IMG/VR virus record: IMGVR_UViG_3300031754_000016
Span: 1 to 35,469 of that record
DNA length: 35,469 nucleotides
From: a virus
Direction: 5' to 3' (one strand)
Shown here: positions 15,884 through 31,854 of the stretch, one piece after another
Layout: each line of letters opens with the position of its first letter
Position numbering within the stretch: the stretch's first letter is position 1
Program-made: the position numbers and the translations under genes
Notes under the pieces: model-generated
What the model was told of the DNA's origin: nothing
The model's input: the letters and a program-made list of their open reading frames with translations, nothing else
Databases searched by the model: none

Positions 15884-16062
15884 TGCTTACCACGGCTCTT
15901 AGGGCCACGGTAGATAGCGCAGCCTGCGTCTACCAGGGTGCCGTCTACACACCACTTGCGGACGGTGCGTGGAGCTATGCCGTAGAACTCAGCGGCCTCA
16001 ATTGTGTCGTACCAGTTGTATTGAGGGTGAGTGCGTTTGAAGTGTTCACGGGTGGTTGGCAT
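15832..16062 (-). CDS. Excisionase-like helix-turn-helix protein (76 aa)
   Basis: ATG 16062 overlaps the portal stop (TAATG). Residues about 18-45 (DTIEAAEFYGIAPRTVRKWC then VDGTLV) match the winged/MerR-like HTH_17 pattern: a YxTIxEAAexxGi-type helix, TVRKW recognition helix, then a strand with R/K-W-L-I. This family binds DNA in excisionases and small regulators. It is odd to find it between portal and head genes; it could regulate the late operon or assist packaging. Confidence 0.6.
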   Translation of the reverse strand: MPTTREHFKRTHPQYNWYDTIEAAEFYGIAPRTVRKWCVDGTLVDAGCAIYRGPKSRGKQWLIGMPSTEHTAQPSL

Positions 16063-17750
16063 TATCGGGGCCTCTTGAGTTTGCTGAGGGCGGCTAGCTG
16101 GAGTTCTTCTCGCTGAGCGGAAGCCACTTCGGCGGCGTCCGGGAAGTCAAGTGCCTCAAGGGCATATTGTAATGGAAGGTGGCCTTCCTTCAATAGACCC
16201 ATCACGAGTGAGCGCATGGCGGCTGCTGACATGGGCCTTATGGATGTGTGGTCTAAGTAAACGTCGTAGTCTTCGATGGGGCCTAGTTCGGGCCACGCCG
16301 TCAGTTTTACGTCGCCACTATCTTGGCTGACAAATTGTGTGCCCTGTTTCAAGTTGCGCATGGTCCAGAACACCAGTTCGGCGGTGCGCTGGACGCTCTC
16401 GGCCATCATACGAGCACGCATGCGGGTCAGGAATTGTGATTGGAATATCGACGCGTCGTTCAGGTCGGCGCCTACGTTGCCGGGGGCCTGTTGGCCCGCT
16501 CTGGCTGGAGTGAATCCTTGTAGCTCTTTCTGCAACGTGAGTAACTGTTGGGGCGCTTGGGTCATGTGGGCGGGCATGGCTTGGGGATATTTACATTCGG
16601 GCACAGGACTGTTGGCGTTGATGATGCATACTTGGGCGGGGATGCCGCCAAACTCTTCGGCACGCAGGCCGGTGCGTTCGTCTATGAACCAGATCATGTT
16701 GTTGGTGCGGACGGCGTTCTCGAAGTTCTGGGTCAGGTGGCGTTCGGCTAGCTCCTGTAGACCCTTTGTGTAGCGTACGGGCGGTGGGCACCAGAAGCTG
16801 CCCAGGGTAGGCATGGCGTGGTAGGGGATGATTGGCCAGCTGCGGAATGGATAAGGGTTGTCGCCGTCGGCCAGAACGATGCCGTCGCACTCTACGATCC
16901 AGCGTCCGTTGGGCCATCGCAGCTTGCGTTGGGGGGCGGGGATCAGTGCTCCTAATTGGGACTGGATTCGTTCAACGTCTTCCTTGGGGATGTCCATGGC
17001 GGTGTAGTCGCGGATGTACAGGTGTCTTACGGTAAGGCGCCCGTCGCCACTAGGCTTTATTGTGGGTATGCCACCGCTGATGCTCATGGGCCCGTCGGGT
17101 AACTTTAAGCCAATGTCGAAGCCGTCGGGGGGTGCAGACGCTCGCCCTAGTACGTTGCGTGGATGGACTCGGTAACCGTTCTCGGGCCACAGGCGTTGGA
17201 TTTCGTCAATGTACATGCGGTCTTTGAGGATGACGTAGACCCACTGTTCGGGGTCCGCTGATCCAGGGTCGGGGAACACTGTGCTGGGGTCGCGGACTTC
17301 CATCCACACTTCGCCCTGGCCGCGCTTGGCCTCGGGGTCGAAGCCTACTTGGATAAAGCCGGTGCCACAATAGAGGCCCCACAGTTCGGCCAGGAATATT
17401 TTGTTGTTGAAGTACTGCTGACGCCAGTGCTCGGTGAAGCCGTCTTCGGCGGCACGGTCGCGCTTGCCGTCTTTCATGATGAATATTTTGGGCTGCTGAT
17501 CGCTGAGGTCGGTGGCTTCGTTCAGCATCAGGGTTTGGAGCTGCGGCACCACTACCCTAGGTCTAAAGGTGGGGGATGCGGGGAACCTACCTGTCAAACT
17601 GTGAAAGTCGCGGACCTCTTGGAACCAGTCATCGCCGAGGGTGTTGTCACGTTCGTCTTGACTCAGCCGTTCCAACTCATCCATTTGTCTGGTGATAGTT
17701 AAGTCAGGGCTCTCTTGAGCTGATTCTCTTTTTATATTGGTGATAGGCAT
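16062..17750 (-). CDS. Portal protein (562 aa)
   Basis: ATG 17750 lies one base after the homing endonuclease stop (TAGTATG). The N terminus is charged and helical, followed by the wing-like region with PRVVVPQLQTLMLNEATD, an alpha/beta part with GTGFIQVGFDP and RDPSTVFPDP, and WVYVILKDRMYIDEI. The long helical C-terminal crown/stem region contains NFENAVRTNN and ADLNDASIFQSQFLTRMRA. Length and order fit a podovirus portal that forms the dodecameric DNA channel. Position downstream of TerL agrees. The C terminus ends in a Lys/Arg tail. Confidence 0.8.
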   Translation of the reverse strand: MPITNIKRESAQESPDLTITRQMDELERLSQDERDNTLGDDWFQEVRDFHSLTGRFPASPTFRPRVVVPQLQTLMLNEATDLSDQQPKIFIMKDGKRDRAAEDGFTEHWRQQYFNNKIFLAELWGLYCGTGFIQVGFDPEAKRGQGEVWMEVRDPSTVFPDPGSADPEQWVYVILKDRMYIDEIQRLWPENGYRVHPRNVLGRASAPPDGFDIGLKLPDGPMSISGGIPTIKPSGDGRLTVRHLYIRDYTAMDIPKEDVERIQSQLGALIPAPQRKLRWPNGRWIVECDGIVLADGDNPYPFRSWPIIPYHAMPTLGSFWCPPPVRYTKGLQELAERHLTQNFENAVRTNNMIWFIDERTGLRAEEFGGIPAQVCIINANSPVPECKYPQAMPAHMTQAPQQLLTLQKELQGFTPARAGQQAPGNVGADLNDASIFQSQFLTRMRARMMAESVQRTAELVFWTMRNLKQGTQFVSQDSGDVKLTAWPELGPIEDYDVYLDHTSIRPMSAAAMRSLVMGLLKEGHLPLQYALEALDFPDAAEVASAQREELQLAALSKLKRPR

Positions 17751-19111: not shown

Positions 19112-20854
19112 TTAGATACCCTCCAGTCCATGTCCTAGTATCGGCTTACTGCTACCTTTTGACGATGACATAACCTTTTTGAAGTGGCGCTGCAGGCTGA
19201 ACTCCAGGTCGTCTTGCCACTTTGGGAGCTTTTCGCGCAGCTGTTCGTCTTCGGAGCCCATCACGAAGGGGTCGCGCCACACACGCTTGCCGAGTACCTT
19301 GGGGGGCGGGTTCTGTACGTACGCGATGGCTGCGAGCATAGCTGACATTAAGATGTCGTCGTGGCCGTACTCGACTTCCCACCTGCCGCTCTCGACTAGG
19401 GTAGCCTGATCAAGTTGTTCGAGGCAGGCTTCGTCGCGGACTGTCAAGGTGGGGAACTCTTCGCCGCGCATGCGCCCTCGGATGCAGGTACGGAAGTTAT
19501 CGAACAGTTTGCGCCGCGAGTATGTGGTGGTTTCCCAGCCGATCAGTGTGGAAGGCTTGCGGCCCCACTTGTCGTCCTTGCCCTTCCACAGGGCGAAGTT
19601 GGGGTACATAAGCTGGTCGCGCAGGATGCGGATGGTCTCGCGGCCACTGTTACCGGTGAGTTCGACGTTGAGCATGGCCTTGTTGTACCAGCGGCCCGCC
19701 ACGTTGAGGTACTGGGCTAGGATGTCTGGGGTGATGCGTTCACTGTAGCGAGCTACGATTGCGCCCACTGTGCCGTCAATGACCGTGAATGCTGCGAAGT
19801 CGCCCTCTTCTACGCCTACGGCTGCGTCGGCGCCTATGTAGTATGTGTGGCCAGTTTTAGGCTCTTCCCACAGTAACATGGAGCCCTGGGTGGTCTTTTC
19901 AAAGCGGGGGTGGTCGGCGTCCCAGTGTAGGTGGCCTTTGGCGACTGGGGTGACTACGCACTGGCGCACGAACTTTACTTCGTCAGATGGGAATGCTGGG
20001 TCACCTGATGCAACGAACGCGATTTCCGGTGTCCAAGGGAACTCTTGCATGAAGCGGGGCAGCATGCCTTGACATTTATTTTCTAGAGTGTAGCGCATCC
20101 AAGCGATCTGCGCTTTGTTGGCATTGAATGGTGTAGCCATCAGCTCGCGCTCTAAGTCGTTGGCAGGTGCGTCTTCTGCATCCTCTGGATCACCTACGCA
20201 GATTGGATCATCTAGGAATCCGATGAACACTGGCACGTAGCCGTTGTGGCCTGCGACTGCGGATTTCCAGAACTCGTAGAACACTTTACCTGGGCCTACT
20301 CTGCCGAAGGCGGTGGATTCGATGACGACCATCGTATCAGGACCTTCGCTGACGGCTGGCAATAGTGACAGGAAGCTTCCCTCACCAGGGAATTGGCTGG
20401 CTTCACTTAGGTGTAAAGCAGACAGTGTTAATCCGCGCCCACCGCCTAATGAGCCTGCGGTGGCGATGTCCAAGATGCTGTCGCCGCCTTTGTGCTTAAC
20501 GACAATGTGTTTGGTGAAGATGTCGCCCACTTTTACGGGGAGTGCCTTAGCGAGATCGCGGGGGACTCTGAATAAACCTTCAGCGGTGTCGTTCAGGTGC
20601 GCTACGATTTTTGCGTGGGCCTGTTCGCGGGCCAGGCAGTGTAGCAGCAGCAGAGCGTCTACTTCACTTGATATGCCCACGCGGCGTGACTTCAACACGA
20701 TGGCACGGACTCGGTCAGTTTCTGCGTACTGCGCTGTGATCTTATCGGTAAATATCTGCTGCGATGGACGTAACTTAAAAGGTACAGTGCGGCCAGTCTG
20801 GATGTCCTTGATAGGCAGCTTTTCAAGAAGGTCTACGGAGCGTTGGATGTTCAC
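19112..20854 (-). CDS. terL: Terminase large subunit (580 aa)
   Basis: The start chosen is GTG 20854, whose GTGA overlaps the previous stop and which has GGGAG eight bases upstream. An ATG 23 codons further up would overlap the previous gene by 73 bases. Residues 55-62 (KSRRVGIS) are the Walker A-like ATPase loop. LSALHLSEAS near 148 is the Walker B-like segment, with Ser-Glu as in many terminases, and VVIESTAFG near 178 follows. The C-terminal nuclease has GADAAVGVEEGDFAA, a central ELTGNSG strand and the late acidic site YGHDDILMS. It powers DNA packaging into proheads and cuts the concatemer. It heads the head-gene operon. Confidence 0.9.
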   Translation of the reverse strand: MNIQRSVDLLEKLPIKDIQTGRTVPFKLRPSQQIFTDKITAQYAETDRVRAIVLKSRRVGISSEVDALLLLHCLAREQAHAKIVAHLNDTAEGLFRVPRDLAKALPVKVGDIFTKHIVVKHKGGDSILDIATAGSLGGGRGLTLSALHLSEASQFPGEGSFLSLLPAVSEGPDTMVVIESTAFGRVGPGKVFYEFWKSAVAGHNGYVPVFIGFLDDPICVGDPEDAEDAPANDLERELMATPFNANKAQIAWMRYTLENKCQGMLPRFMQEFPWTPEIAFVASGDPAFPSDEVKFVRQCVVTPVAKGHLHWDADHPRFEKTTQGSMLLWEEPKTGHTYYIGADAAVGVEEGDFAAFTVIDGTVGAIVARYSERITPDILAQYLNVAGRWYNKAMLNVELTGNSGRETIRILRDQLMYPNFALWKGKDDKWGRKPSTLIGWETTTYSRRKLFDNFRTCIRGRMRGEEFPTLTVRDEACLEQLDQATLVESGRWEVEYGHDDILMSAMLAAIAYVQNPPPKVLGKRVWRDPFVMGSEDEQLREKLPKWQDDLEFSLQRHFKKVMSSSKGSSKPILGHGLEGI

Positions 20855-21222
20855 CGGGTGCGCTCCCTTCCGTTTGGACTTACTGACCTGAACATGCCAC
20901 CCATGGCCGCTTTCATGTGACACCCTTGGCTGCAGATAGATTCGCGCTCCACCACGCCAGTTTTAACGTTCATGCGGGCCTGCGTGTACACTGGGCTATA
21001 AATATTGCGCCCGTGCTCAACGCGGGTGGGCAGCTCGTGGTGGCACACGATGCAGTACTCTTTCTTCTGCTGGGAGTTGCGCTGGCTGTATATGCGTGTA
21101 CCGGCGTCGGCACTGGCTCTGACTTCGGCGAGCAGCTTTTCGTAGTTGGTTAGCGACAAACTGTTCCAGTCGGTCTCGGTGGGGACGTTAAATTGATTGA
21201 CAGCCAGGCTAGACTTCGGCAT
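20851..21222 (-). CDS. Hypothetical zinc-binding protein upstream of TerL (123 aa)
   Basis: ATG 21222 follows GGGAGGGTGGA and overlaps the end of the 85-aa gene. A CIVCHHELPTRVEHG segment (C53-x2-C56 with nearby His) and a later C-x3-C (SICSQGCH) suggest a four-Cys zinc site. The N-terminal third is helical. Its stop is fused to the TerL start. Position would fit a small terminase subunit or an HNH-type packaging accessory, but no HNH Asn/His pair can be seen, so no function is assigned. Confidence 0.5.
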   Translation of the reverse strand: MPKSSLAVNQFNVPTETDWNSLSLTNYEKLLAEVRASADAGTRIYSQRNSQQKKEYCIVCHHELPTRVEHGRNIYSPVYTQARMNVKTGVVERESICSQGCHMKAAMGGMFRSVSPNGRERTR

Positions 21223-25616: not shown

Positions 25617-26099
25617 GCATAATTTACCCACTAATTTTTACGCCTACTAAGGCATAGACATCCACGCGCACAGCGTAGATATAGACACGTAGCTCGACCT
25701 ACGAGAGATGGGGTACCCGTAGTAGTAGCACGTGGCGCGTGACACGTAACGCTAACGTAACTATGCCTATCGCTAACGTATCTGGCCATCTACTACACGT
25801 GTAGGACCGTGTGCGTGCGGCTGCGGCAACGTATATATGTGCGAGCGTGTAACGATTACGCGTACAGTGTAATTACTACTACTGCTACGACTGCTACGGA
25901 TGCGCAAGGTGTTGATAACAAAGGGTTGGCGCATGTGGCCATGCGTGTGCACTACGCAATGTGCCGTTTGAGAGAAAACAAGCGGCAGACTCAGGCGAGC
26001 CTCAGTTAGTAACGCATGTACGTACACGGTGTTAACAGCATCGGAAGCGTATGAGTCAACCACTGAGGATATCTAGAGTGTACGGTGTGGGGGTGACAC
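25617..26099 (+). other. Gene-poor CGTA/ACGT-rich region, origin or control candidate
   Basis: No convincing gene: the only frames are short and of odd composition. The stretch is unusually rich in CGTA, ACGT and TACG. It holds direct copies of CGCTAACGTA (25750-25759, 25771-25780), a perfect 12-bp palindrome CTACACGTGTAG (25793-25804), GGGTACCC, and GTAGTAGTAG and TACTACTACTGC runs. Such clustering would suit an origin or regulator-binding region; nothing decides between them. Confidence 0.45.
25750..25780 (+). repeat. Direct repeat CGCTAACGTA x2
   Basis: Two identical 10-base copies at 25750-25759 and 25771-25780, 21 bases (two helical turns) apart. That spacing puts them on the same face of the DNA, as for tandem protein sites or iterons. 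Confidence 0.6.
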
Positions 26100-26480
26100 A
26101 TGCCACATCGTAAACATGATAGCGCGTGGAAACAGTTTGAAACGTTTGGGGTTACGGTACGTCGAGAACGTCCCCTGAGGGATGCCGATGGACACGTGAG
26201 CAAACGTTACGAATTGCCAGCGACGGCGGCAGAGCGGGCCTTGGGACGTGGTCCTAGGTTCACACTGGCACCGCAGCACAAGGGTTCACGCGGTATCAAG
26301 CGGGATTCGCCTATCGGTGAGTTACAGTTGCCACACGTGCATACGGGTGAACGTCTACTCTCACAAGAGGAAACGTATTCACAAGCGCAGTGTACGTGCG
26401 GTAAACCGGCAGATAAGAACAGTATGTTTTGTGGAGACTGTAACTCAGCGACTAGGCGTTACTTAGCGAAGTTTAGCTAA
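26100..26480 (+). CDS. Hypothetical protein with C-terminal zinc ribbon (126 aa)
   Basis: ATG 26100 after GTGGGGGTGAC. The N-terminal two thirds are basic (HRKHDSAWKQFETFG, VTVRRERPLRD). The C-terminal 35 residues contain CTCGKPADKNSMFCGDCN, a C-x-C...C-x2-C zinc ribbon, followed by a basic helix RRYLAKF. Likely binds nucleic acid. It stands alone between two gene-poor stretches and is followed directly by a hairpin. Confidence 0.55.
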   Translation: MPHRKHDSAWKQFETFGVTVRRERPLRDADGHVSKRYELPATAAERALGRGPRFTLAPQHKGSRGIKRDSPIGELQLPHVHTGERLLSQEETYSQAQCTCGKPADKNSMFCGDCNSATRRYLAKFS

Positions 26481-26504
26481 GTGTGCGGGTAGTCACTCGC
26501 ACAC
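26481..26504 (+). terminator. Stem-loop directly after the zinc-ribbon gene
   Basis: GTGTGCG (26481-26487) and CGCACAC (26498-26504) form a perfect 7-bp stem with a 10-base loop, beginning right after the stop codon. No T-run follows, so Rho-independent termination is doubtful; it could be an RNA 3' end protector. Confidence 0.35.
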
Positions 26505-26963
26505 CGTACATTCTGGGTTCGCTTCCCATACGTTGGGTGAACATAGGGCATTGCCCATGTGCACATTAGTTCGCAACCGTGTGCATGGTAATTCGTGCAA
26601 TGATAACCGCGCCTATGTGTGGGAGTCACTATCTTGGCACACTGCGCACCAATTAGCCATTTTGGCGCACGTGGTACCATTCCGCGCATTGCGAGCGGAG
26701 CAATCGTGCTACGTGTTACGGGTAAGCCGCAGAGAAAGTGTGGGATAGTGTGGGGAATCCGATTCGCGTATTGTCCGCGAGAGTATTGCTTTGCTGTATG
26801 TGCGTTCCGACGCACCGCTAGCGAGAGAAAACGCTATGTGCGGTTCGCCTTCACAAACGTATGCAGAGAGAGCCAATACCGGCGCTGTGGTCAGGTGCCA
26901 GCGGCAATAAAACGGCGGTCTGTCCGTAGCGTGGCTACGGTACACTGTGGGAGGGTTACGTAT
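26505..26963 (+). other. Gene-poor stretch
   Basis: Open frames on both strands here have unlikely composition (Cys/Arg/His-rich, no ribosome site) and I reject them. It contains GGGCATTGCCC and other short inverted repeats, and many GCGCA/TGCGC/CGTG words. At its right end lies a leader hairpin, CCGTAGC (26924-26930) and GCTACGG (26934-26940), upstream of the 36-aa membrane gene. Confidence 0.4.
26931..26959 (+). repeat. Duplicated leader, copy 1
   Basis: GTGGCTACGGTAC (26931-26943) and GGGAGGGTTAC (26949-26959) stand in front of the 36-aa gene. The same two blocks, joined directly, precede the 117-aa gene at 27102-27125. The second block carries the ribosome site. Copy 1 includes the 3' arm of a CCGTAGC/GCTACGG hairpin. 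Confidence 0.65.
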
Positions 26964-27074
26964 ATGCTTGATATCATTGGATATACGCTGCTTTGGATGC
27001 TGTTCTTTGCGGTAGTAGCAGTCATCCAAGAGCGTGAAGAGCGCGAGCGCAGGCGTAACTGTAAGCGTGAGTGA
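26964..27074 (+). CDS. Small membrane protein with charged tail (36 aa)
   Basis: ATG 26964 after GGGAGGG. One hydrophobic span (MLDIIGYTLLWMLFFAVVAV) is followed by IQEREERERRRNCKRE, a strongly charged cytoplasmic tail. The shape resembles small phage inner-membrane peptides. The frame is open far upstream, but that part has implausible composition and no ribosome site. Confidence 0.6.
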   Translation: MLDIIGYTLLWMLFFAVVAVIQEREERERRRNCKRE

Positions 27075-27101
27075 CCCTCGCGCAGTGTACCGTACGTCAC
27101 A

Positions 27102-27125
27102 GTGGCTACGGTACGGGAGGGTTAC
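27102..27125 (+). repeat. Duplicated leader, copy 2
   Basis: GTGGCTACGGTAC followed directly by GGGAGGGTTAC, the second copy of the leader at 26931. It gives the 117-aa gene its ribosome site. The duplication suggests co-regulation of the two genes. Confidence 0.65.
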
Positions 27126-27129
27126 AAAC

Positions 27130-27483
27130 ATGACAAATGATGCACAAGCAGGTAAGTTAGTATCGGGTCAGTTCACTGAGGCCGTCAAGGGGCAGACTGG
27201 CCCTGACGCGCAAGCGTCGTTAGGGCGTCCTGTTGGTAAGCCCATGATTGCGCTCCTGATTCTGTTCGCTGTGTTGGATGCTATCAACGCAGGGGGCGAG
27301 TTTGGGGCGCCGAATGGGGTTATCTACTCTGCGCTGATGGCTTTTGGGGCTACGCTAGACCAGCATCAGAGGTTGATTACGTTCCTCACGAGTCAAGGGT
27401 ATGTGACCATCAGTGGGAATGTGCTTCATCTTACTGAGGCAGGCATTAAGCTGATGAATAGCTTAGCGCCGTTGTCAACCTGA
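27130..27483 (+). CDS. Hypothetical protein with winged-helix-like C-terminal half (117 aa)
   Basis: ATG 27130 after GGGAGGGTTAC is preferred over an in-frame ATG at 27034, which has no site. Residues 38-60 are hydrophobic (MIALLILFAVLDAI). Residues 65-113 (GVIYSALMAFGATL, then RLITFLTSQGYVTISGNVLHL) read like the helix-helix-strand hairpin of a winged helix domain. Its stop overlaps the next ATG (TGATG). Confidence 0.5.
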   Translation: MTNDAQAGKLVSGQFTEAVKGQTGPDAQASLGRPVGKPMIALLILFAVLDAINAGGEFGAPNGVIYSALMAFGATLDQHQRLITFLTSQGYVTISGNVLHLTEAGIKLMNSLAPLST

Positions 27484-27635: not shown

Positions 27636-27643
27636 ACAGCCGC

Positions 27644-27683
27644 ACGCGAGACACAGACTGTGTTAACGAAAGTGACCCTCGCG
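27644..27683 (+). repeat. Stem CGCGAG/CTCGCG with inner hairpin
   Basis: CGCGAG near 27644 pairs with CTCGCG ending at 27683, enclosing ACACA-GAC-TGTGT. The 3' arm includes GTGACCCTCGCG, identical to 27071-27082. It is the first of several stems in this intergenic region. Confidence 0.4.
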
Positions 27684-27750
27684 TTCCGTGACCATGCTGC
27701 GGACGGGATTCAAAAAGGTAACGTATCAAGGTGTGGCTCGCCCAGGTGCC

Positions 27751-27787
27751 TTGCACCTTACGGTGCAATGCTCACGTAAACGTGAGC
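27751..27787 (+). repeat. Two adjacent perfect hairpins
   Basis: TTGCACC-TTAC-GGTGCAA (27751-27768) is followed one base later by GCTCACG-TAAA-CGTGAGC (27770-27787). Both have 7-bp perfect stems and tetraloops. No T-run follows either. They directly precede the larger structured element and look like RNA structure rather than protein operators. Confidence 0.6.
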
Positions 27788-27914
27788 TATGTGACTGAGG
27801 CCCACAGGGTCTGAGCTTAAATCGCTCAGATTGTTGCGCTTGCGCAACTTTTGGACAGGGTTAGTGTCCAAAGCTGTGGATACCCCAGGCTCCATGCTAG
27901 GAACGGTCACATAG
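27787..27914 (+). ncRNA. Candidate structured RNA A (multi-helix element)
   Basis: CTATGTGACTG (27787-27797) pairs with CGGTCACATAG (27904-27914), an 11-bp closing helix with one G-U. Inside are AGGCCC-ACA-GGGTCT, TCTGAGC/GCTCAGA (27810-27816/27824-27830), GTTGCG-CTTG-CGCAAC (27833-27848) and TTTGGACA/TGTCCAAA (27850-27857/27865-27872). The first two share a few bases and may alternate. A 19-nt motif CAGGCTCCATGCTAGGAAC (27886-27904) sits just before the closing strand and recurs in element B. It may be a free ncRNA or a leader of the 83-aa gene. No known family recognised. Confidence 0.55.
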
Positions 27915-27918
27915 TCAC

Positions 27919-27942
27919 CTGTATTGTGAACTGTATTGTGAA
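27919..27942 (+). repeat. Tandem 12-bp repeat before the 83-aa gene
   Basis: CTGTATTGTGAA occurs twice without a gap (27919-27930, 27931-27942), directly before the AGGAGAG ribosome site. It could be a tandem operator or a binding site in the leader RNA. Confidence 0.7.
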
Positions 27943-27960
27943 TAGGAGAGTACACACACT

Positions 27961-28212
27961 ATGTCTACTACTGCTACCCGTACCAAGCGCACAGTGAAAC
28001 CGGCCAAGCGTGAGTTGTCCTACCAGGAGTGGAAGACTCAGGTGGACAATGTCATGCACCAGATGTGCGGCTTGGGTGTGGACAGTATTCCGCAGTCGTT
28101 TGGGCTAAAAGAACGGTTTGAAGCTGGGGCCGATATCGGCCAGACGGCTGTGGATGCGTACGAAGCTCTGGAACCTGCGGACTTCGATGACGAGGACGAG
28201 GACGCGGCCTAG
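27961..28212 (+). CDS. Small acidic-tailed phage protein (83 aa)
   Basis: ATG 27961 after TAGGAGAG. A basic N terminus (TRTKRTVKPAKRE) precedes LSYQEWKTQVDNVMHQMCG and GVDSIPQSFGLKERFEAG, then an Asp/Glu tail (DFDDEDEDAA). The helix with YQEW and the following D-x-L/I-P motif recall a widespread small phage family of unknown function. It lies between structured elements A and B, its stop forming part of a downstream hairpin. Confidence 0.6.
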   Translation: MSTTATRTKRTVKPAKRELSYQEWKTQVDNVMHQMCGLGVDSIPQSFGLKERFEAGADIGQTAVDAYEALEPADFDDEDEDAA

Positions 28213-28346
28213 GACTCTAACGAGTCCTAAGGTCACGCAAGCGTGACCATGACCTGCTGTTTAGGTCAGCTCAGGTGGAGTAGGCGCCTGAGCGAGTCAC
28301 ATCTTGGTGCGTGTGTGCGTTGAGGATGGGTAATCCTAGCGCACAC
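28210..28346 (+). repeat. Array of five hairpins after the 83-aa gene
   Basis: In order: TAGGACTC-TAAC-GAGTCCTA (28210-28229), GGTCACG-CAAG-CGTGACC (28231-28248), TGACCT/AGGTCA (28250-28268), GCTCAGG/CCTGAGC (28269-28293) and GTGTGCG/CGCACAC (28313-28346) enclosing AGGAT/ATCCT. They are nearly contiguous and have 6-8 bp perfect stems. A C-rich run then T3 follows the last. This density is far above chance and leads into structured element B. Confidence 0.6.
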
Positions 28347-28357
28347 TCCCCCCTTTG

Positions 28358-28466
28358 CACTGACACAGGTGGTTCTATTGGTCAGGACGCTAGCGAGTTT
28401 GTTATACCGTCTAGCGAGACCGCAGGCTGTATGCTAGGAACATCAGTAGCCACCTGTTCGTCAGTG
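28358..28466 (+). ncRNA. Candidate structured RNA B (multi-helix element)
   Basis: CACTGACACAGGTGG (28358-28372) pairs along 15 bp with CCACCTGT-tc-GTCAGTG (28450-28466), broken only by a 2-nt bulge. Inside, GGTC (28380-28383)/GACC (28418-28421) and CGCTAG/CTAGCG (28388-28393/28411-28416) form one extended hairpin. CAGGCTGTATGCTAGGAAC (28423-28441) matches 17 of 19 bases of the motif in element A and again lies just before the closing strand. The 59-aa gene starts 21 bases later. Confidence 0.55.
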
Positions 28467-28487
28467 TTTCCCACAGTGAGGTGACAT

Positions 28488-28667
28488 ATGCGTAGACGTA
28501 AGTTATCGAAGCTGAGGGCTGGGGCTTTTCGTTTGGCTACCCGCAGGCGTCCTTACACTGGACGTAGGCCAAAGTTTGTGTGGGTTCCTATTCCGCCATG
28601 GGGACAGCGTTCCATAGCTGTCCGGCCAAAGCGTGACCCCATGCCCCATGCGTTAGGCAGTATGTAG
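28488..28667 (+). CDS. Arg-rich small protein (59 aa)
   Basis: ATG 28488 with GAGG upstream. MRRRKLSKLRAGAFRLATRR is followed by RPYTGRRPKFVWVPIPPWGQ and a KRD tail; about one quarter is Arg/Lys. Likely a nucleic-acid-binding peptide. It stands directly after structured element B and one base before a tiny membrane peptide frame. Confidence 0.6.
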   Translation: MRRRKLSKLRAGAFRLATRRRPYTGRRPKFVWVPIPPWGQRSIAVRPKRDPMPHALGSM

Positions 28668-28673
28668 GTGAGT

Positions 28674-28724
28674 ATGATTACAGCCATTATAGTGTTGATA
28701 TTGTTGATTTTAGCCACCGGCTAA
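28674..28724 (+). CDS. Minimal hydrophobic peptide (16 aa)
   Basis: ATG 28674 (or GTG 28668 abutting the previous stop, adding two residues) to TAA 28724. It encodes MITAIIVLILLILATG, a single short membrane-spanning segment and nothing else. Coupled translation with the 59-aa gene would be needed. Its shape matches known tiny membrane peptides of phages and bacteria, but chance cannot be excluded. Confidence 0.35.
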   Translation: MITAIIVLILLILATG

Positions 28725-28758
28725 CGAGCTTTCCCAGCCGATAACAAAGGGGGATACC

Positions 28759-29115
28759 ATGATGACTGATAGTTATAAGCCGTGTACACATCTCAGTGAG
28801 ATTAAGCCACAGGCGAGGGTGGTTGTTGTGGAAGCTGACCACAGGTTGCCGTTTGGCGACCGTACAGTCGTGTGTGAAGACTGTGTTGCGGAGGGGTATG
28901 TGAAGGGGTGGGTCCACTTACGCCAATGTATGGTGTGTGGACACATTGCGTGCTGCAACTCCAGTGACAATAAACATGCGGCGCGTCATGCGCATTCACA
29001 GGGGCATCACATTATCAGGTCTGTGGAGCCCAACGAGCATTGGGGATGGTGCTACATTGACAGTGTGGAGCTGGAGATGAACCCGTATCCACATGTTGAC
29101 GTAGTACTTGTCTAA
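28759..29115 (+). CDS. UBP-type zinc finger protein (118 aa)
   Basis: ATG 28759 after AAAGGGGGATACC. The whole protein is one domain: C9-H11, C39-x2-C42, C57-x2-C60, C65/C66, H73, H77 and H83/H84, with GWVHLRQC, CNSSDNKHAARH and EPNEHWGWCYID. This is the signature of zf-UBP, the fold that binds the free C-terminal GG of ubiquitin in eukaryotic deubiquitinases and HDAC6, and that occurs alone in some bacteria. All expected ligands are visible. Its role in a phage is unknown; binding a C-terminal tail of a ubiquitin-like or other protein is inference. Confidence 0.85.
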   Translation: MMTDSYKPCTHLSEIKPQARVVVVEADHRLPFGDRTVVCEDCVAEGYVKGWVHLRQCMVCGHIACCNSSDNKHAARHAHSQGHHIIRSVEPNEHWGWCYIDSVELEMNPYPHVDVVLV

Positions 29116-29155
29116 GTCACTGTCTAACGAGTTTAGGCGCCAGTACGGGCCTATG

Positions 29156-29275
29156 GGGGATGCCTGACTCTGACGTTGGCATGCTATATCCTCTCCCCCA
29201 ACATGCACTGCTACATTGGCAGACAAACACGCAATGTAGCTGAGATGTGCTGAGTCCGCTGTTATAGGCATCCCC
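29156..29275 (+). ncRNA. Candidate structured RNA C (multi-helix element)
   Basis: GGGGATGCCT (29156-29165) and AGGCATCCCC (29266-29275) form a perfect 10-bp closing helix. Nested inside are GACTC/GAGTC (29166-29170/29252-29256), GTTGG/CCAAC (29175-29179/29198-29202) and a coaxial GCAC + CTACATTG with CAATGTAG + GTGC (29205-29218/29232-29250). All helices are compatible with one secondary structure. It lies between the UBP gene and the 154-aa gene, so it may be an intercistronic ncRNA or leader. Confidence 0.55.
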
Positions 29276-29312
29276 ACAATTTTGTTCTGCTGTGAACTAA
29301 GGGGGAGATACT

Positions 29313-29777
29313 ATGCGCAAGTTGCCGTATAAAGTTATTGGAACGTACCATCCTGCTGAGGGTGCTACGCCTGAGCAGATTGGCCATGATCTGATTAAGA
29401 TTGTAGCTGAGGCTGGCTACAGTGGATTAAGGGATCATGGTTGGGGTGGTGCTACTTGGCACGATAACGATACTGGCTCTGAGGTCCGGCATAGCTATGT
29501 GCAGGACAGTAGCGCCCGTGTGTGGCACCAGGACTCACGGGGCAGCGATGTTCTGATGGTGGTGTGGGCCAATAAGAATCCTACGTGGATCAAGTACAAG
29601 TATGGCTATAAGGTCTATGTACCTGAGCCATTTGATATCGTGCTCATTGAAAATGCACGTACTAAGCACCATGCACCTGCCACTGCTGATGAGGCAGACA
29701 GGCTATTTTTCAGGCAGTACGTGCAGGTAGCTGAGGCTGAGCCTGAAGAGTACGACGCTGAGGGTATGGCAAGTTAG
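29313..29777 (+). CDS. Hypothetical protein (154 aa)
   Basis: ATG 29313 after AAGGGGGAGATACT. Alpha/beta pattern: KVIGTYHPAEG, a helix PEQIGHDLIKIVAEAG, a strand-rich part with Trp and His (GWGGATWHDND, ARVWHQDSRG), then YKYGYKVYVPEPFDIVLI and an acidic tail. Not recognised. The stop TAG lies in a recurring TA(A/G)CGAG motif. Confidence 0.55.
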   Translation: MRKLPYKVIGTYHPAEGATPEQIGHDLIKIVAEAGYSGLRDHGWGGATWHDNDTGSEVRHSYVQDSSARVWHQDSRGSDVLMVVWANKNPTWIKYKYGYKVYVPEPFDIVLIENARTKHHAPATADEADRLFFRQYVQVAEAEPEEYDAEGMAS

Positions 29778-29818
29778 CGAGTTTCACCCAGTCCTGTACA
29801 CCTAAAGGGGGTATACCG

Positions 29819-30115
29819 ATGTCAGAACGTAATGGTGTGGCGACTGCGCCACTGAATCATCCCACTGTGGAGAAGCAACAGGTTCCCAATGGGCAGTCGG
29901 TGGGCCAGACGCTGCATTTACAGTTCAGGCTCAACAAGGCTACGCCGGGTGCGATTCAGTATCGTGAGATCGTGCCGGATAGCCAGCCGCCCAAGATGGG
30001 TACGCTGTACCTTAAAAAGTATGTCGTGCCGCAGCCGTACCCGGAGCTTATCTCGGTAACGGTGAACATTCCGTTGGGCACTGACCTGAGCACGTTTACG
30101 CCCATCGAACCATAG
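29819..30115 (+). CDS. Hypothetical protein (98 aa)
   Basis: ATG 29819 after AAAGGGGGTATACCG. The N terminus is polar and disordered. Residues 28-95 are beta-rich (TLHLQFRLNKATPGAI, GTLYLKKYVVP, LISVTVNIPLG). Strand pairs of this type suggest a small beta barrel, possibly nucleic-acid-binding, but no family is recognised. Confidence 0.5.
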   Translation: MSERNGVATAPLNHPTVEKQQVPNGQSVGQTLHLQFRLNKATPGAIQYREIVPDSQPPKMGTLYLKKYVVPQPYPELISVTVNIPLGTDLSTFTPIEP

Positions 30116-30156
30116 TCCAGCCCAGTAACTTTACCTTAAGGGGGATATACCGTGAA

Positions 30157-30381
30157 ATGTGGGACTTACAAACGATCATCGCACAGAACCGTAGGCGCCA
30201 AGCGGAGTACGACAAGGCGCATCCCGAAGAGGCTGAGCGTCGTATCGCTGAGGATGAGCCCATTACAGTACCTAGAGCACCTGGGCGCACAGGTCCTGGC
30301 CCAGCGCCCGTTGAAGGCTCGCCTACGCAGCAATCGGAACTAGGGTCGCTGCGCAGCACACTGAGATTCTATCTGCAGTAA
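30157..30381 (+). CDS. Hypothetical small protein (74 aa)
   Basis: ATG 30157 gives MWDLQTIIAQNRRRQAEYD, a charged helix, then a Pro/Gly/Glu-rich linker and a short C-terminal helix. A GTG at 30152 in another frame sits at the usual distance from the GGGGG leader but encodes an implausible Arg/Ser-rich peptide. I therefore prefer the ATG, with some doubt. Confidence 0.5.
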   Translation: MWDLQTIIAQNRRRQAEYDKAHPEEAERRIAEDEPITVPRAPGRTGPGPAPVEGSPTQQSELGSLRSTLRFYLQ

Positions 30382-30413
30382 CTCTACACACTGTATGTAA
30401 AGGGGGAGTACCG

Positions 30414-30944
30414 ATGTCTAAGGATATGTCTAAGCCAAAAGTTAAACAGGCCATAATTTTGGTCACTGTCCATGAAGATGGGCCAATGCAGTCCAGTGTG
30501 ACCCGGCCAGCCTACAGTCATAGACTGGGGCGCATGCTGGGGCTATACATGGTGGACGTGTACCCGAATGACATGGTGCCCGATGCGAAGATGGTTGACA
30601 CGGCGGCCCATGAGTTTGGCCACGTGCTGGCCAATATATTTGAGACGCCAGTGTCTAGGGCTGATCCGAGGCATGGAGCTACACCACTGCTGAGGCATGC
30701 ACTGGACACTAATCAGGCACCGCCTGAGGTGTTGCAGCGTGAGGTTGATGCTGAGGCTGAAGCGTGGGACTTTGCCCAGAAAATGTGGGCTGACCTTGAT
30801 CCAGCGGCACGTGAGGCTAATCTGGATACGTATAAGCAGGGGCTCAGGCTGTGGCACAGGTCTGCCAATCCTGAGGCCGATGCTGACTCAATAGAAGCCG
30901 CGCTGGCTAGGTTAGAGCGCCTGATTGCCCAGGTCAGTCGCTAA
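30414..30944 (+). CDS. HExxH zinc-peptidase-like protein (176 aa)
   Basis: ATG 30414 after AAAGGGGGAGTACCG. TAAHEFGHVLA at 63-73 is the HExxH zinc site (H66, E67, H70). About 40 residues later REVDAEAEAWDFA offers an acidic third ligand, as in ImmA/IrrE-type and related gluzincin peptidases. The N-terminal half is beta and the C-terminal half helical. It is one of three HExxH proteins in this arm. Substrate unknown. Confidence 0.65.
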   Translation: MSKDMSKPKVKQAIILVTVHEDGPMQSSVTRPAYSHRLGRMLGLYMVDVYPNDMVPDAKMVDTAAHEFGHVLANIFETPVSRADPRHGATPLLRHALDTNQAPPEVLQREVDAEAEAWDFAQKMWADLDPAAREANLDTYKQGLRLWHRSANPEADADSIEAALARLERLIAQVSR

Positions 30945-30996
30945 CGAAATTATTCAGGCCACGTCCCAGCTCTCACTCTTAAAGGGGGATTACCGT

Positions 30997-31431
30997 ATGG
31001 AGATTAGTTTAACTAGGGCAGGGAGCTTCCATGCCGACAAGATGGTCCCGAATGGACATAAGTGTGCTGCTATGCACACTAAGATTTACCGTTATGAAGT
31101 GTCTATTCAGGCTACCGCCGTCAAGCTGACACCTGAGGGTTATGTGATAAATAACGAGCGGGTGCAGGGCTATTTTGACGAGCGGTGGGGACAGTTGGCA
31201 CCACAGCCGTGGGACGCAATTTCGTGTGAAAACCTGGCACTCACGTCGGCCAGGGAGATTGGCACTGAGTTAGTGGCCCAAGGCATCGAGGTCATATGCG
31301 TGAATTGTATGATCGAGGGCTCTAATGGCGCTAGGATTACTGCGAAGTGGGTGCCAGCGTCTACGCAGGTCACTAAGCGTGAGGCACCTGAAGAGACGCA
31401 GTCGCGCCCATCGTTTGGGTTCGACGAATAA
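30997..31431 (+). CDS. QueD/PTPS-fold protein lacking zinc ligands (144 aa)
   Basis: ATG 30997 after AAAGGGGGATTACCGT; the frame opens 24 codons earlier without a site. SFHADK, GHKCAAMHTKIYRYEV, TPEGYVINNERVQGYF and ISCENLA align in order with the QueD pattern FxAxHxL, HKCxxLHGHxYxV, GxxxDFxxLK and PTxExLA. The catalytic-type Cys and one His remain. The first and last zinc His are both Lys (ADK, HTK), and the LDHxxLN box is missing. It is therefore probably an inactive relative used for binding, in a family that otherwise makes carboxytetrahydropterin for preQ0. Confidence 0.55.
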   Translation: MEISLTRAGSFHADKMVPNGHKCAAMHTKIYRYEVSIQATAVKLTPEGYVINNERVQGYFDERWGQLAPQPWDAISCENLALTSAREIGTELVAQGIEVICVNCMIEGSNGARITAKWVPASTQVTKREAPEETQSRPSFGFDE

Positions 31432-31486
31432 CACTTGACCGTAGCAGTAGCAGTATGCTACGTTAACCGTTCCAATTTCGTGAAAG

Positions 31487-31521
31487 TGGGGGCGCTCTAT
31501 GCCCCCAAGGGGGATACCATG
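31487..31521 (+). promoter_or_regulatory. Leader hairpin A next to the ribosome site
   Basis: TGGGGGC (31487-31493), loop GCTCTAT, GCCCCCA (31501-31507), followed at once by the GGGGG ribosome site (31509-31513) and ATG 31519. The C-run can pair with the upstream G-run, or partly with the ribosome site itself, so two states are possible. A matching element with compensatory changes lies at 32120-32151. Confidence 0.6.
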
Positions 31522-31833
31522 GAGAACGTACTTGATCCTACTACGATATCTGACACTGTCTACGCTAAGGTATTAAGTCAGGCTAGCATAGATGAACTAC
31601 TGATACCTAGCGATGACAGTGCTGGATTTAAGTTCGTAGATAAGATCACTGACAATAAGAATGCCCAGGAGATGTTCAAGGCATTCGCACTGGCCATTAT
31701 GACTACCATTGCTCAGTCCAAGGATGGCAGGCAGGCAGCTCAACGTATAGCTATAGCTACTGCTACGGCTATGTGGCTAGGATATCAGCTGGCACAGGTT
31801 CAGATGGCTGAGCTGCCTGCACAGCATAGTTAG
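31519..31833 (+). CDS. Hypothetical protein (104 aa)
   Basis: ATG 31519 after AAGGGGGATACC; an in-frame TTG at 31435 lies upstream of the leader hairpin and is rejected. The protein is mostly helical: TVYAKVLSQASIDELLI, a short acidic loop, NAQEMFKAFALAIMTTIAQS, RIAIATATAMWLGYQL. The last helix is hydrophobic but contains Gly/Ala, so membrane insertion is possible but not certain. Not recognised. Confidence 0.5.
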   Translation: MENVLDPTTISDTVYAKVLSQASIDELLIPSDDSAGFKFVDKITDNKNAQEMFKAFALAIMTTIAQSKDGRQAAQRIAIATATAMWLGYQLAQVQMAELPAQHS

Positions 31834-31854
31834 AGTTCACACAGGGGGATACTT

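Follow-up and report, generated by a model that had tools for sequence, protein, structure and literature searches.

Two related structured elements upstream of small phage genes as candidate cis-acting leader RNAs

The virus record IMG/VR IMGVR_UViG_3300031754_000016 (35,469 bases, analysed at full length and called the window here) is probably a fragment of a phage genome. Structural genes, including the portal (16062-17750) and terminase (19112-20923) genes, lie on the minus strand in its left part, and small genes together with an AAA ATPase are found on the plus strand in its right part. This layout points to the right part as the probable early region, and it is here that two folded elements, A and B, are situated. 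Downstream of A is an open reading frame of 83 amino acids (27961-28212, plus strand), without a match in a PHROG comparison, and downstream of B is one of 59 amino acids (28488-28667, plus strand). A third candidate element, C, lies at 29156-29275, also read on the plus strand.

Other motifs are present in the neighbourhood. The leaders of two further plus-strand genes have GTGGCTACGGTAC and GGGAGGGTTACnnnATG in common (26924-27133), and the stretches 26936-26959 and 27071-27094 are inverted repeats of one another (24 nt, 88%). GTGACCCTC at 27071 could pair with GAGGGTTAC, directly before the start codon near 27131, and GTGACCCTCGCG is present in two copies, at 27071 and 27672, each immediately upstream of, or between, small genes. 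Many of the small plus-strand genes in 28744-31852 have a stereotyped ribosome-site block resembling AAGGGGGnTACC before the start codon. The motif YTARCGAG closely follows the stop codon of one small gene after another (28217, 28721, 29124 and 29774) and has two further copies within B, at 28390 and 28411; TAACGAG after stop codons proved on inspection to be a local repeat. The coding stretch 27201-27480 is strongly folded on the plus strand (z -4.8; minus strand, z -2.0). A UBP-type zinc finger (PF02148, E 7.5e-9) is present in a 118-amino-acid protein encoded at 28759-29115, which is unusual for a phage.

A and B follow a common order: an outer helix CAGGTG/CACCTG, an inner helix CTAT.../...TAG, the trinucleotide AGG, a third helix, AnACCnCAGGCTnnATGCTAGGAAC and the returning strands. 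The full extent of A is 27743-27921, as given by the minimum free energy (MFE) structure of 27740-27925, with the arms of the outer helix at 27743-27748 and 27916-27921. Its inner helix P1, CTATGTGACTG/CGGTCACATAG, spans 27787-27914, its helix P2, CCACAG/CTGTGG, spans 27802-27879, and the core shared with B, GATACCCCAGGCTCCATGCTAGGAAC, is at 27879-27904. In element B (28358-28466) the outer helix CAGGTGG/CCACCTG (28366-28372 and 28450-28456) is extended by CACTGAC/GTCAGTG, P1 spans 28375-28449 and the shared core, GAGACCGCAGGCTGTATGCTAGGAAC, is at 28416-28441. Compared with B, A carries extra insertions, namely two hairpins between the outer and inner helices (27751-27768 and 27770-27787) and three enclosed by P2. 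Upstream of B is a row of five hairpins (28210-28346). The P2 helix of B, CGCTAG/CTAGCG (28388-28416), is absent from the MFE structure; a fold constrained to all three helices is only 2.3 kcal/mol above it.

The original prediction had taken A, B and the hairpins beside them to be real folded elements, and this is borne out by comparison of the MFE of each element with 200 dinucleotide shuffles. The MFE of A (27787-27914) is -57.1 kcal/mol against -37.9 +/- 3.8 for the shuffles (z -5.0), and that of B (28358-28466) is -45.2 against -30.6 kcal/mol (z -4.3); for neither did any of the 200 shuffles fold as well. The two hairpins before A (27749-27788, z -6.6) and the five before B (28208-28347, z -5.9) are likewise far below their dinucleotide shuffles. 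In a scan of about 880 stretches over the whole window, the lowest z of the record, -6.7, belongs to the 120-nt stretch 27761-27880. Perfect hairpins (stem of at least 7, loop of 3-8) number 18 in the 35 kb, and six of them fall within 27751-27872 and 28210-28248. The minus strand of A and B folds equally well, so the strand cannot be read from the folding by itself; internal G-U pairs lean slightly to the plus strand for B and are undecided for A. The elements are provisionally assigned here to the plus strand, solely from the direction of the genes.

Element C does not share these properties. Closed by a 10-bp helix, it had been described as a further multi-helix element, a description that the folding does not support. 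The picked stretch (29156-29275) gives z -2.7, with one of 200 shuffles as good, the whole intergenic region around it (29116-29312) gives z -0.5, and the centroid structure retains the closing helix and one hairpin, nothing else. Local alignment of C with A and with B finds no similarity above chance. It had also been argued that three such closures in 1.7 kb are very unlikely by chance. The window has nine perfect helices of at least 10 bp with arms 50-160 nt apart, compared with 3.3 +/- 2.0 in shuffled windows, so that the closure of C alone is not unlikely; the argument is thereby reduced from three closures to two. Membership of C in a family with A and B is not supported, and C is within reach of chance.

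A and B, on the other hand, are paralogues, with a shared block in the same place of one architecture. A repeat search finds a block of 26 nt, 22 of them identical, in both, and their local alignment extends over 44 columns (GATACCCCAGGCTCCATGCTAGGAACGGTCACATAGTCACCTGT and GAGACCGCAGGCTGTATGCTAGGAACATCAGTAGCCACCTGT) with a score of 39, against a maximum of 28 among 2000 shuffled pairs. The 3' end of the 44-nt block consists of the 3' arms of two helices. The corresponding 5' arms are also common to both elements: CAGGTG, which pairs with CACCTG, opens the element and CTAT opens the inner helix. Shortened cores (A without its inserted hairpins, B without part of its P2 loop) served for an alignment and as input to a covariance model; when they are aligned on sequence only, the outer-helix and inner-helix arms fall in register. 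With the helix pairs laid out by hand, P1 (CTATGTGA/TCACATAG in A, CTATTGGT/ATCAGTAG in B) shows three double changes, two single changes and no broken pair, and P2 shows three double changes and none broken, in a register that requires a 2-nt gap unplaced by sequence alignment alone. As a comparison of two sequences from one genome, these compensatory differences support a conserved structure, short of proof.

What signals accompany the two elements? The outer helix ends at 27921 in A and at 28456 in B, and the start codons follow 31-39 nt on, at 27961 and 28488. Shine-Dalgarno-like sequences, AGGAGAG for A and GAGGTGA for B, lie between the outer helix and the start codon, outside the structures, which fits leaders that do not simply mask the ribosome site. 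A scan for intrinsic terminators (GC-rich stem followed by a T-run) finds no site in A, B or the flanking hairpins, and a scan for sigma-70-like promoters finds none at A or B. ARAGORN makes no tRNA or tmRNA call, and a search for DNA similarity to phages and plasmids gives no meaningful match. That no known phage RNA family had been recognised agrees with the Rfam scan, in which no family reaches the gathering score and the matches at E <= 10 are two chance ones to eukaryotic families.

Relatives of the phage that were found stop short of the elements or lack them. A contig 99.99% identical over the overlap (L002) ends at window position 27285, and another of about 95% identity overall (L003) ends at 27153, both before A; the latter shows no difference from the window within 25901-27153 and thus offers no test of the upstream inverted repeats. 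One relative (L004/L013) covers structural genes only, and one that shares the DNA polymerase at 48% (G005) is without an A- or B-like element. Protein queries adjoining A and B find no relatives apart from L002, which is the same phage.

The core does appear in an unrelated phage contig (L005/G004) as CCGCAGGCTGGATGCTAGGAACATT, matching the model consensus at 24 of 25 nt. It is flanked by a TTGACA-17-TATAAT promoter on one side and a T-run hairpin on the other, and an integrase gene lies upstream. Among the loci examined, the hits of the covariance model are A, B and this core, the last by sequence alone and at an E-value of 0.018, which is not an independent test as the locus had been fetched with the same motif. 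The full A/B architecture was considered for this locus and rejected: P1 can be drawn by hand (CUAUU-UU-GG/UCAGUA, with a 2-nt bulge), but unconstrained folding favours a different pairing and the model matches the core only. The minus strand of this contig at 5200-5420 has a strong promoter, several hairpins, the B-like core and a terminator downstream of the integrase gene, and is likely a stand-alone small RNA gene. Other matches were set aside. Those to the core in a genome collection (L009-L011) lie inside a protein-coding gene of related Lachnospiraceae (AGWMLGTG) and are due to chance; the viral matches L006, L014, L015 and most of L027-L046 appear to be coincidental or to lie in coding sequence.

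Could the core be a DNA element? One possibility is a promoter whose -10 sequence is CATGCT or TATGCT and whose start site follows directly, about 50-60 nt ahead of the ATG; another is an operator. The palindromes would then be protein-binding sites. We regard such a role as unlikely. The distance from core to start codon is similar in A and B, and equal folding of both strands is expected of DNA palindromes. The promoter reading is kept alive by a phage contig (L030) that has TGTATGCTAGGAACATCAG inside a good promoter, TTGCAC-17-TATGCTAGGAACATCAG, 23 nt before an ATG and preceded by similarly built sister promoters; this contig, however, was retrieved by the motif itself, and the likeness is partly one of selection. 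Neither A nor B has a -35-like hexamer 16-18 nt ahead of the core, in keeping with the promoter scan. Furthermore, conservation begins well ahead of the supposed -10, continues for about 20 nt beyond it and takes in both outer helix arms, and the hairpins differ in sequence, which is ill-suited to one DNA-binding protein.

Phage T7 has helical RNase III sites in one early intergenic region after another. A and B might similarly be sites at which RNase III cuts the early transcript between genes, or else discrete trans-acting small RNAs; either is unlikely. B has a nearly unbroken helix of about 23 bp, a good RNase III substrate, whereas the inner closing helix of A has only 11 bp, and a conserved sequence block is not required by RNase III. 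The apparent stand-alone small RNA of the unrelated contig speaks for a trans-acting role, but A and B have neither promoter nor terminator of their own. That small RNA also enters a bolder proposal, which we find quite unlikely: a new RNA class in unrelated phages, with the core CAGGCUnnAUGCUAGGAAC in a three-way junction binding the transcription or translation machinery directly and the small RNA as a stand-alone member. The same locus could suggest that the elements are relics of recombination or insertion, either tyrosine recombinase sites or remnants of palindromic mobile elements, as its core forms a dyad with a 7-nt spacer (CTGGATG CTAGGAA CATTCAG) about 160 nt downstream of the integrase gene. 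Yet A has no half-site symmetry, and tyrosine (PF00589) and serine (PF00239) recombinases are absent from the window record, L002 and the DNA-polymerase relative (G000, G001 and G005), records that may be fragments; this origin is very unlikely. Least probable of all is that a hairpin-prone region has folded in this way by chance. C behaves in that manner and the elements were picked by eye out of 35 kb, but the z scores of A and B, the clustering of hairpins and the homology of the two elements argue against it.

The explanation that we favour, at a probability of about 0.45, is that A and B are a pair of cis-acting leader RNAs, two copies of one structured element, each in the 5' untranslated stretch of a small early gene, in the early operon of a tailed, environmental phage. 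It is favoured because the start codons follow so closely and neither element has its own promoter or T-run terminator. A and B would be transcribed on the plus strand together with the early genes, and the core, held in a three-way junction, would be read in cis by a sequence-specific partner, which may be RNA polymerase, as for the put RNAs of phage HK022, or a phage or host protein. This reading would set the read-through into, or the expression of, the downstream genes, and the row of extra hairpins may serve to protect or insulate the transcript.

HK022 putL and putR, a related pair of RNA elements, are part of early transcripts and have RNA polymerase as their target (PMC9378689). Each is about 70 nt long with two adjacent stem-loops, one element being present on each of two early transcripts (PMC9378689). 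Put binds the zinc-binding domain of the polymerase beta' subunit and suppresses termination. By analogy, A and B may be two related, structured and putatively cis-acting elements with sequence-conserved positions in the early transcripts of one phage; they are homologous and upstream of plus-strand small genes, and their transcription and early timing would follow from the gene layout. Unlike put, they are about 90-180 nt in size, with nested helices and a three-way junction, and are on the same strand 0.5 kb apart. Neither has the size nor the two adjacent stem-loops of put, and they are therefore not filed as put, the likeness being one of description. A and B also resemble Rfam riboswitch and leader families as multi-helix leaders with a long closing helix upstream of a gene, but differ in having no match at the gathering score.

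The suggestion that these intergenic structures form a family of leaders or other phage RNA elements is supported for A and B, on folding, the shared block, compensatory differences, position and the Rfam result, and not for C. The pair are probably regulatory leaders of an undescribed RNA family. If they are cis-acting leaders, the phage RNAs known to steer early transcription or expression, which are few, would gain a second lineage, and a precise 26-nt core would be available for mutation and for searches. Even on a modest reading, A and B are a seed for a family absent from Rfam.
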